From positions 1 to 64,000 of the forward strand of contig CANJNZ010000004.1 in assembly GCA_947476045.1 (NCBI GenBank): a stretch of DNA of 64,000 bases. Direction: 5' to 3'. Shown here piece by piece: positions 37,466 through 41,375 of this stretch. The notes beneath the pieces were generated by a model. It searched no databases, had not been told where the DNA came from, and saw only the letters and a program-made list of their open reading frames with translations. This DNA comes from Chthoniobacteraceae bacterium. GTDB lineage: Bacteria > Verrucomicrobiota > Verrucomicrobiia > Chthoniobacterales > Chthoniobacteraceae. Every line of letters begins with the position of its first letter. Position 1 is the first letter of the stretch. The position numbers and the translations under genes are program-made.

Positions 37466-37578
37466 CGTGGTTTTTTAGAAAATGGGGCGCGTCTGTAGCA
37501 CGACACCGGCGCGAGGTCTAGCAGCCTCTGAGCACGTCGCGCTTGCATCGGCGCGGCTCCGTGCGTCACACGGATTGG

Positions 37579-38415
37579 ATGCTCTGGCAAACACGCACAC
37601 AATCATTCGACCTCGCGCGGCACGGCGTGGTGATGGGCGTGCTGAATGTGACACCCGATTCGTTCAGCGACGGCGGGCGCTGGCTCGATGTGGATGCGGC
37701 GGTTGCGCACGGCGCGGAGATGTTTTCGCAGGGCGCGCAAATCGTGGACGTTGGAGGCGAGAGCACGCGACCGGGCGCGGAGCCGGTAGCGGAAAGCGAG
37801 GAGTTGCGGCGGGTTTTGCCGGTGATCGAGCGACTGGCGGCGCTCGGCTTGGTCGTTTCGATAGACACCATGAAAGCGAACGTCGCCCGTGAGGCGTGCG
37901 CAGCGGGAGCTTCGGTAATCAACGACGTGAGCGGGCTACGTGACGAGGCGATGTTATTAGCAGTCAAAGAGACCGGGGCTGGCGCGGTCATCATGCACAT
38001 GAAAGGAGAACCGCTCACGATGCAGACCGCGCCGCGCTACGAAAATGTAACGCGCGAAGTGCAGGATTCCTTTTGCACCGCGATGGAGCGTTGCCTACGT
38101 TGCGGCGTGCCCGCGCAAAACCTCATCTTTGATCCCGGCATCGGGTTTGGAAAGACGGTGGACCACAACCTCGAGTTGCTCCGCCGCCTGCCGGAATTGC
38201 GCGTCGGCGAACGGCCGCTGCTCATCGGCGTGTCGCGCAAAAGTTTCATCGCAAAAGTTCTCGGCTCCAATGCAACCGCGCCCGAAGACCGCTTGTGGCC
38301 AACGGTCGCGCTCACGAGCTACTGCCGCGAGCGCGGGGCGCGAGTCTTTCGTGTGCATGATGTGAAACCCAACGTGGAGGCGCTTCGGATGACCGAGGCG
38401 ATTATCGCCGGATGA
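37579..38415 (+). CDS. folP: Dihydropteroate synthase
   Basis: 278 residues from ATG 37579; an in-frame TTG at 37543 would add 12 residues without conserved features. Folate pathway enzyme joining pABA and the pterin diphosphate. Motifs: GVLNVTPDSFSDGG, GGESTRPGAEPV, DTMKANVA, INDVSGL, FDPGIGFGKT, LLIGVSRKSFIAKVLG and a C-terminal RVHDV. Its TGA overlaps the ATG of cdaA (ATGATG at 38412), so it leads the operon folP-cdaA-mini-cdaR-glmM, an order also familiar from several Gram-negative groups. Confidence 0.95.
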   Translation: MLWQTRTQSFDLARHGVVMGVLNVTPDSFSDGGRWLDVDAAVAHGAEMFSQGAQIVDVGGESTRPGAEPVAESEELRRVLPVIERLAALGLVVSIDTMKANVAREACAAGASVINDVSGLRDEAMLLAVKETGAGAVIMHMKGEPLTMQTAPRYENVTREVQDSFCTAMERCLRCGVPAQNLIFDPGIGFGKTVDHNLELLRRLPELRVGERPLLIGVSRKSFIAKVLGSNATAPEDRLWPTVALTSYCRERGARVFRVHDVKPNVEALRMTEAIIAG

Positions 38416-39296
38416 TGCTCGCCACGTTCCAGCAATTTGCCGCCGACAATTGGAAGGGTGCCCTCGAAATCCTCATTCTCTCCATTTGTATCTACTACGG
38501 ATACCTCGGCCTTCGCGGGACGCGCGGATTGCGCGTGCTCACCGGCCTTACACTACTCGTGCTTGGTCTGGCGTTTCTCTCGCAACTATTCGGGCTGGAT
38601 GTCATCTCGTGGTTGCTTCGCTCCCTCTCGGCCATCGTGCTGCTCGCACTTGTCGTGATTTTCCAGCCGGAGTTGCGCCGCCTGCTCGCACAAATCGGCA
38701 GCCACCGCCTATTCGGCACGCAGATTCAGCAGCGCGAAACCGTCGAGTTGCTCGCTGAAACCATCTTCGATCTTTCGAACCGCCGGCTCGGCGCGCTCAT
38801 CGCGATTGAGCGCGGCACGGACATCCAGTCGCACATCGAGAGCGGTGTGGAGGTGGATTGCAAATTTTCGCCAGAACTGGTCGTCACCATCTTTCATCCC
38901 AAAACCCCATTGCACGACGGCGGCCTCATCGTGCGTGGCGATCGCATCGCCAGTGCGGCGTGCATTTTTCCAGTCAGCCAGCGGCAGGATTTGGATCGCA
39001 ACCTCGGCCTTCGCCATCGCGCAGCCATTGGATTGAGCGAGGAAAGCGACACCATCGTCCTCATCGTCAGTGAGGAAACCGGAGTCGTCTCGCTCGCACA
39101 TCGAGGACGTCTGGAGCGCGATTTCACGCCGGAGAGCTTGCGCAAGCGACTCGGCGAGCTACTTCTCAGCACCGACGATGAAGAAACTATTCACCAACAA
39201 CCCGGCGGCGAAAATCGTCTCACTCCTGCTGGCGACACTGCTGTGGGCAGTGATTCGAAAAAGCCAGCTCAACGAACCGACGACATCGCAGCCTAA
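38412..39296 (+). CDS. cdaA: Diadenylate cyclase (c-di-AMP synthase, CdaA/DisA_N type)
   Basis: 294 residues. Three N-terminal helices (ALEILILSICIYYGYLG; VLTGLTLLVLGLAFLSQLFGL; LSAIVLLALVVIF) anchor it in the membrane. The cyclase domain spans ~100-240, with the usual DGA motif read here as DGG (D169-G171 in PLHDGGLIVRGDRI) and the RHR motif intact at 201-203 (GLRHRAAIGLSEESD). It makes c-di-AMP from two ATP. The last ~45 residues after RKRLGELLL are a polar tail not seen in normal CdaA; they exist because the reading frame runs through the overlapping mini-cdaR gene. Confidence 0.93.
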   Translation: MMLATFQQFAADNWKGALEILILSICIYYGYLGLRGTRGLRVLTGLTLLVLGLAFLSQLFGLDVISWLLRSLSAIVLLALVVIFQPELRRLLAQIGSHRLFGTQIQQRETVELLAETIFDLSNRRLGALIAIERGTDIQSHIESGVEVDCKFSPELVVTIFHPKTPLHDGGLIVRGDRIASAACIFPVSQRQDLDRNLGLRHRAAIGLSEESDTIVLIVSEETGVVSLAHRGRLERDFTPESLRKRLGELLLSTDDEETIHQQPGGENRLTPAGDTAVGSDSKKPAQRTDDIAA

Positions 39297-39345
39297 GCCC
39301 GGGCCCGCTAGTGTAGAATTCGGTGCTTCCGTGCATGGAAAGTAA
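39178..39345 (+). CDS. Truncated CdaR/YbbR-like membrane anchor, overlapping cdaA
   Basis: A 55-codon frame, MKKLFTNNPAAKIVSLLLATLL then WAVIRKSQLNEPTT..., lying in a different frame from cdaA and overlapping its last 119 bases; it overlaps glmM by 11. The start MKKLFTNNxxxKIVSLLLATLLW is just what the N-terminus of CdaR (YbbR) looks like, and CdaR sits exactly here, between cdaA and glmM, in other bacteria. All YbbR domains are missing: after the helix there are only ~25 residues. It may be a degraded gene or a minimal partner of CdaA. I rate its translation as likely because of position and sequence. Confidence 0.6.
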   Translation: MKKLFTNNPAAKIVSLLLATLLWAVIRKSQLNEPTTSQPKPGPASVEFGASVHGK

Positions 39346-40711
39346 CCGCAAAATCTTCGGCACCGACGGCGTCCGCGGAGTTGCTAATCTCGAGCCTGTC
39401 ACCGCCGAGACCGCCCTCAAACTTGGCCGTGCCGCCGCACACGTCTTTACACAATTTGGCACCCGCCGCTCGGATCGCCGCCCGATCATCGTCATTGGTA
39501 AAGACACCCGCCTCTCCGGCTACATGCTCGAAAACGCACTCGCAGCCGGCGTCATGTCCCTCGGCGTGGACGTCTTTCTTCTCGGTCCGCTGCCCACCCC
39601 CGGCGTCGCGTATCTCACGCGCACATTGCGCGCCGATGCGGGCATCGTCCTCAGCGCCTCGCACAATCCGTATGAGGACAACGGCATCAAATTCTTCCGC
39701 CACGACGGCTACAAACTCGACGACGAAATCGAACGGCGCATCGAGGGCCTCGTCTTCAGCGGCGAAATCGAAAACATCCGCCCCACCGCCGGCAAAATCG
39801 GCAAAGCAAAAAGGATAGACGACGCCCTCGGTCGCTACGTCGAACACGCAAAATCCAGCTTTCCCAAAGGACTCACGCTCGAAGGAATCAACATCGCCCT
39901 CGATACCGCCAACGGCGCCGCCTACAAAAGCAGCCCCTGGATACTCCACGAACTCGGCGCCAACGTCACCACCTTCCACAACCAGCCCGACGGGCGAAAC
40001 ATCAACGCCGGCTGCGGCAGCACGCACCCCGAAGAAATCTCCCGCCTCACCCGCGAAACCGGCGCACACATCGGCATCAGCCACGACGGCGACGCCGACA
40101 GACTCCAACTCTGCGACGAAAAAGGCGACATCGTGGACGGTGACGAAATCCTCGCCATCACCGCCTGCGACCACATCCGCCGCGGCACCCTGGCGAAAAA
40201 CACCCTCGTCGCCACCGTCATGAGCAACTTCGGTCTCGACGACACCCTGCGCGAACACCATGGCCGCGTCCTCCGCACCAAAGTCGGCGACCGCTACGTC
40301 ATCGAAGCCATGCTCGCCCAGGACTTGAACATCGGCGGCGAACAAAGCGGCCACCTCATCTACCGCGACCACAGCACCACCGGCGACGGCATCGTCGCCG
40401 CCCTCCAAATCCTCCGCATCATCGCCGAAACCGGCAAACCCTTGAGCGAACTCAAGCGCGTCTTGAAAAAATACCCCCAAGCCCAGCGCAACCTCCGCGT
40501 CCGCGAAAAGCGCCCCATCGAGACCATGCCCGACATCCTCGCCCTCATCCAGCAGACCGAGGAAAGCCTGAAAGGCGCAGGCCGCGTCCTCCTCCGCTAC
40601 AGCGGCACCGAGCCAAAAATCCGCCTCCTCATCGAAGGCCGCGACTCCGCCGCGATAGAAAAAGCCGCTGACACCATCGCCGGGACCCTCGCCGCGCAGA
40701 TCGGCGAGTGA
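39335..40711 (+). CDS. glmM: Phosphoglucosamine mutase
   Basis: 458 residues from ATG 39335; an in-frame GTG at 39323 would add four residues. It converts glucosamine-6-phosphate to glucosamine-1-phosphate for peptidoglycan and LPS. Phosphoserine loop LSASHNPYEDNG (S109), metal-binding SHDGDADRLQ, sugar-binding GGEQSGHLI and phosphate-binding RYSGTEPKIRLLIEG are all present. Codon use differs from its neighbours: C-ending codons and long runs of ACC/GCC/CGC are striking, so the third base is very C-rich. Last gene of the folP-cdaA-cdaR-glmM operon; a repeat element begins at its stop codon. Confidence 0.96.
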   Translation: MESNRKIFGTDGVRGVANLEPVTAETALKLGRAAAHVFTQFGTRRSDRRPIIVIGKDTRLSGYMLENALAAGVMSLGVDVFLLGPLPTPGVAYLTRTLRADAGIVLSASHNPYEDNGIKFFRHDGYKLDDEIERRIEGLVFSGEIENIRPTAGKIGKAKRIDDALGRYVEHAKSSFPKGLTLEGINIALDTANGAAYKSSPWILHELGANVTTFHNQPDGRNINAGCGSTHPEEISRLTRETGAHIGISHDGDADRLQLCDEKGDIVDGDEILAITACDHIRRGTLAKNTLVATVMSNFGLDDTLREHHGRVLRTKVGDRYVIEAMLAQDLNIGGEQSGHLIYRDHSTTGDGIVAALQILRIIAETGKPLSELKRVLKKYPQAQRNLRVREKRPIETMPDILALIQQTEESLKGAGRVLLRYSGTEPKIRLLIEGRDSAAIEKAADTIAGTLAAQIGE

Positions 40712-40826
40712 GTGGCGAGAGTCGAAAGACGGGCGGCGTGTCGTCCCCACGGGCGGGAGCAAGTATGTAAGCGCGGCTTTCAAAATGATGAAGGTGGTAA
40801 ACACATTCACCATCCGAGCCACGGGA
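40708..40826 (+). repeat. Intergenic repeat element, copy 1
   Basis: About 119 bp starting at the glmM stop. Its ~75-bp core (40750-40824) matches the reverse complement of 41217-41375 at roughly 85% by eye, including GGCTTTCAAAATGATGAAGG and CACCATCCGAGCCACGGG. The outer part has GTGGCGAGAGTCGA words that also appear, inverted, at both ends of the other copy. See finding on the inverted pair. 40827-40956 shows no gene. Confidence 0.8.
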
Positions 40827-40956
40827 CGATTCTTCTCCTGCCGCTAGCCACTTTCTCCAGCGCAGAACATGAATGTAATATCATTTGCCAAGCGGCAAAA
40901 TGTTCCCCAAACCTACGTGACCTTCACCCGCTTTCCCAAGCACTCACCTTCCATAT

Positions 40957-41216: not shown

Positions 41217-41375
41217 GTGGCGGGTGTCGAGAGGCGAGTGGCGTGTCTGCCCGTGGCTCGGATGGTGAGTATGTTTGCCACCTTCATGATTTTGAAAGCC
41301 ACGCTAACAGACTTGCTCCCACCCGTCGGGACGACACGACACCCGCCTCTCGCCACTCGACACTCTGCTCCCGCC
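41217..41375 (-). repeat. Intergenic repeat element, copy 2 (inverted)
   Basis: Inverted relative to copy 1. It has its own terminal inverted repeats: the left end has GGCGGGTGTCGAGAGGCGAG and the right end has CCGCCTCTCGCCACTCGACA, so the ends can pair. The central ~75 bp is the conserved core. 41376-41456 leads into hppA and shows no other feature. Confidence 0.8.

Follow-up and report, generated by a model that had tools for sequence, protein, structure and literature searches.

Four overlapping genes run along the forward strand of the window, the 64,000-nt stretch of a Chthoniobacteraceae contig that was analysed here: a folP-like ORF, cdaA, an ORF of 55 codons and glmM. The first (37543..38415), a dihydropteroate synthase gene as identified by eye, overlaps the start of cdaA by 4 nt, and the two, lying on the same strand, probably belong to one operon. 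cdaA (38412..39296) encodes a membrane diadenylate cyclase of 294 aa with matches to PF02457, PF19293 and TIGR00159 (the last at residues 13-247, E 3.5e-68), and glmM (39335..40711) a phosphoglucosamine mutase of 458 aa (TIGR01455, E 6e-177). In the slot between them lies the short ORF (39178..39345), which translates as MKKLFTNNPAAKIVSLLLATLLWAVIRKSQLNEPTTSQPKPGPASVEFGASVHGK; its coordinates and translation confirm a preliminary description of this locus, which had placed it there with a 119-nt overlap with cdaA (39178..39296), and its frame stops 11 bases into glmM. The same description had ascribed an unusual CdaA tail of about 45 residues to the overlap, and CdaA does continue for about 45 residues past its DAC domain, the last 38 or so of them being coded within the overlap.

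The 55-aa protein has no match to any Pfam or NCBIfam model up to E 10, and the YbbR domain (PF07949) is absent both from it and from the whole 4.37-Mb genome (96.8% complete), which extends the original remark that all YbbR domains are missing. A PgpH-type phosphodiesterase and a c-di-AMP riboswitch scoring above its gathering score are present in the same genome, and c-di-AMP signalling is therefore probably live in this organism. Downstream of glmM the window also contains an inverted repeat (40710-40851 and 41224-41365), whose 142-nt arms are 80% complementary and flank small ORFs.

The slot between cdaA and glmM is that of CdaR, or YbbR, the regulator of CdaA (DacA). Two-hybrid work places YbbR/CdaR in contact with the transmembrane region of CdaA (PMC6368335, PMC8573169, PMC8316131), and in Chlamydia YbbR is required for full or optimal c-di-AMP output by DacA (PMC12422730); no regulatory effect of YbbR was observed in S. 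aureus (PMC6368335), and the way in which CdaR controls CdaA has been described as unclear (PMC8573169). Our literature search found no paper on a CdaR without YbbR domains or on c-di-AMP regulation in Verrucomicrobia. The Pfam and NCBIfam models tested are blind to such a protein, and its distribution has therefore probably been overlooked so far.

The description of the ORF as a CdaR-like anchor is borne out by sequence profiles. A profile was built from 72 short forms, all of them from the order to which the window belongs. At E<=0.01 it matches the N-termini of 37 of 52 longer CdaRs, and it hits nothing in a decoy set of about 7,290 sequences that contained ORFs from the reverse strand, shuffled CdaRs and membrane regions of CdaA. 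The same K/A/W pattern marks both sets: among 101 distinct short anchors K12 is present in 100%, W23 in 99% and A19 in 93%, and at the equivalent positions of the 52 longer, YbbR-bearing CdaRs the figures are K 92%, W 100% and A 94%. The N-terminal anchor of the short protein is on this evidence homologous to that of CdaR. The core of the window protein's anchor (codons 12-26, 39211..39255) contains all three of these near-invariant residues and falls within a helix (residues 9-32) in an AlphaFold model of the anchor alone, where blocks have pLDDT of 83-88 and the tail is disordered. Conservation along the helix is periodic, with a moment that is maximal at 100 degrees per residue (p=0.0003), and in the window protein K12, S15, L16, A19, W23 and I26 lie on one face. 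We infer from this the look of a helix with one side facing another protein, for which a simple hydrophobic tag would have no use. A search for covariation between the membrane helices of CdaA and the anchor gave no excess over a within-clade null, the signal seen against a coarse null vanishing under finer clade permutation, and an AlphaFold model of CdaA from seven close sequences was poor (pLDDT 42) and was not used.

The short ORF is found in all ten searched genomes of the genus besides its own (E 1e-13 or better), adjoining cdaA in most of them. Within the order, nearly every relative that has cdaA carries an equivalent ORF beside cdaA, glmM or both, and such ORFs also occur in additional families of the class; where cdaA and glmM are adjacent, nearly all relatives have it between the two. 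A scan of named genomes gave eight loci, and the named near relatives are Spartobacteria/Chthoniobacteraceae MAGs, some of them labelled Prosthecobacter by their depositors. We count 100 distinct short forms of 44-111 aa (median 51), and a crude test found a Shine-Dalgarno-like motif at 22 of these 100 genes. This recurrence in the same place throughout the order, which the preliminary description had proposed as a check, is far beyond chance. That the gene should be dying, a functionless and decaying leftover of full-length CdaR, as the same description had alternatively suggested from the loss of the YbbR domains and as the few relatives without any separate anchor might indicate, is refuted in the main and deserves very little credence, given that relatives throughout the order and in several other families carry the ORF intact and in similar form, that two single-contig genomes of only 0.9 Mb (L128, L129) retain a 47-aa form, and that its amino-acid sequence is constrained, with K and W nearly invariant.

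That constraint can be assigned to a frame. At 52 loci with a long overlap, substitutions between close pairs at codon positions 1/2/3 of the small ORF number 43/22/120. Read in the frame of the small ORF, the overlaps have an amino-acid identity of 0.92, compared with 0.81 in the cdaA phase, and the former is the more conserved at every level of divergence. The constrained frame of the overlap is thus that of the small ORF, and by these substitution patterns the overlapped tail of CdaA is the passenger. The reverse proposal, that the sequence is kept for the sake of the CdaA tail, or is read by a +1 frameshift as a CdaA-anchor fusion, could draw on the +1 phase of the small ORF relative to cdaA in 51 of the 52 long overlaps and on family f85, where the reading frame of CdaA itself finishes with an additional hydrophobic helix. 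It is nonetheless highly improbable, since both the third-position substitutions and the greater identity belong to the small-ORF frame, and since nine distinct forms have no cdaA overlap at all and 32 overlap by less than 45 nt. Two further arrangements refute it where they occur and exclude overlap or frameshift as the cause of conservation. In G009, of the same genus, cdaA lies elsewhere in the genome and is followed by an ORF that is transketolase-like by eye; its product, of 269 aa, lacks the tail that the overlap would encode. The anchor gene of G009, with a GTG start codon, sits directly upstream of glmM with no cdaA before it. In family f89 cdaA is on a different contig and the anchor still precedes glmM.

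These displaced anchors raise another explanation, that the anchor is translated mainly for the benefit of GlmM, as its membrane tether or as a leader coupling glmM translation, and the 11-nt run of the window ORF into the start of glmM would suit it. The distribution among genomes tells against this. Among 286 genomes of the class, 185 have both cdaA and the anchor, 32 have cdaA only, 68 have neither, and only one has the anchor alone, by a match at E 0.0066; the Fisher p of this association, 1e-39, is inflated by relatedness. No anchor was found at E<=0.1 in 20 genomes without cdaA, and glmM was located in 13 of 15 such genomes that were checked, so that genomes with glmM but no cdaA do without it. 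Moreover, the anchor is homologous to CdaR, a reported binder of the CdaA membrane domain, and the distance from anchor to glmM, which ranges from overlaps to gaps of more than 100 nt, ill suits a leader. We therefore consider a role chiefly for GlmM unlikely.

Relatives that keep cdaA and lack the short ORF, which had been named at the outset as the observation that would speak against a functional gene, do exist but are seldom met: in G307 and G324, both from the single genus f61/g129, cdaA and glmM are present and the anchor is lost, and their sister genomes G285 and G434 retain it. Examples from family f79 have glmM straight after cdaA with no separate anchor. Some of the 32 cdaA-only genomes (G277, G312) bear YbbR-containing forms that fall below the cut-off, and family f85 also belongs to this set. 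The losses in G307 and G324 and the absence in f79, despite the presence of cdaA, therefore suggest a protein that is important and not strictly required.

The short forms can be placed within a series of CdaR sizes in the phylum with three to four, two, one and no YbbR domains. Our YbbR search covered 194 genomes of the phylum and 286 of the class, and found the domain in none of the listed genomes from the window's genus, family and order. Other classes have proteins with at least three YbbR repeats, whose length counted from the chosen start is 315-325 aa, and some families of the class have two YbbR domains (221-229 aa) or one (122-164 aa). The largest short forms, of 99-111 aa (f14/g198: L158, L166, L173), carry a charged, coiled-coil-like extension in place of YbbR. 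On a CdaA tree the 74 short-form rows of the main group make up one clade (SH-aLRT 96), and other short forms are found in f62/f67, in L154 and, inside the one-YbbR clade, in f93. Parsimony on this tree requires four changes for the YbbR-free state, two of them forced by well-supported branches; when the tree is thinned, f62/f67 falls, weakly supported, within the main group, and three changes are left. These counts make repeated loss of YbbR likely.

Several features are shared with CdaR/YbbR, namely the cdaA-cdaR-glmM order, a single N-terminal helix with the K...A...W pattern and dependence on cdaA, but the micro-CdaR has no YbbR domain, is 44-111 aa long as against 315-325 aa or more, and in many cases overlaps cdaA at length. 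The one- and two-YbbR CdaRs of the class (one in f66 and f78, one or two in f65) have the same slot and anchor, and differ in mostly retaining a Pfam YbbR domain. Small single-pass membrane proteins are known as a general class to tune larger membrane proteins, and the micro-CdaR resembles them in its size of about 50 aa, its one helix and its place as an operon partner of the target; it differs in deriving from a known multi-domain regulator by domain loss. It is CdaR-like by descent and, we infer, in function, but lacks the defining YbbR feature and is therefore a variant of CdaR and not an ordinary member.

Our preferred reading, which we think probable, is that the short ORF is a true gene whose product is a CdaR cut down to its N-terminal anchor. 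This YbbR-free micro-CdaR would be a partner of CdaA within the membrane, where it would assemble or tune the cyclase. Anchor homology, operon position, constraint in its own frame, a single conserved helix face and a presence tied to cdaA all point this way, and the topology, binding and effect of the micro-CdaR would follow by analogy with CdaR. The protein would insert in the inner membrane, N-in, and its conserved face (K12, S15, L16, A19, W23, I26) would pack against the three CdaA transmembrane helices, so promoting or holding an assembled, active state of the cyclase, with GlmM meanwhile binding the cytoplasmic domain. The extracytoplasmic YbbR sensor would be dispensed with, and the part kept by the lineage would be the part that contacts the CdaA membrane region. 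We incline to a role in activation or assembly, given the need for YbbR in Chlamydia, a member of a related phylum, and the reported increase in c-di-AMP when CdaR is co-expressed with B. subtilis CdaA in E. coli, though the analogy does not fix the direction of effect. The earlier suggestion of a minimal regulator of c-di-AMP synthesis gains support from the constrained frame, the wide retention, the persistence when cdaA moves and the absence without cdaA, and regulation itself is suggested by the homology to CdaR and the published binding of CdaR to the CdaA membrane domain.

A narrower form of this explanation is that the micro-CdaR is a structural subunit only, derived from CdaR, which stabilises or inserts CdaA and does not regulate it. 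With the extracytoplasmic sensor gone, it is not obvious how a signal would enter, and the tails past the helix are short and variable across the short forms; against this, a tail motif around VEFGA.A.G is conserved in the genus of the window. Sequence does not separate such a subunit from the preferred reading, and the confidence we place in the two overlaps; taken by itself, we hold the purely structural role to be possible but rather doubtful.

Under the preferred reading of a micro-CdaR that assembles or tunes CdaA, the anchor helix alone, without outside sensor domains, probably matters for control of the enzyme. We slightly favour a more general proposal, that the essential working part of CdaR is its membrane anchor, which acts by itself as a micro-subunit of the diadenylate cyclase in a large part of the class, the YbbR domains having been trimmed from three or four to two, one and none, apparently more than once. 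If this is so, regulation of CdaA must use intramembrane helix contact. Anchor-only lineages would then be a natural experiment on which part of CdaR selection keeps, and the micro-CdaR offers a synthesizable protein of 50 residues with three near-invariant residues for mutation.

Some loci of the class carry hydrophobic segments on CdaA itself. In family f85 (L254-L261, L264, L267, L268) CdaA has an extra C-terminal helix, with an LxxAxxxWG-like pattern in L254 and L260; where its position is established, glmM is directly next, and these loci yielded no separate anchor gene. Divergent cdaA-like frames of 435-546 aa (L271, L272, L273, L274, L277, L278) have a hydrophobic helix and a repeat-like region past the DAC domain and may be CdaA-CdaR fusions. 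A second cdaA match in one genome (L276, G277:C18) is a candidate natural fusion, in which the DAC domain is followed in frame by a CdaR-like anchor (FLRENAREKLGALGLAVLLWTVVVHRS) and by a stretch resembling YbbR that escapes the Pfam model.
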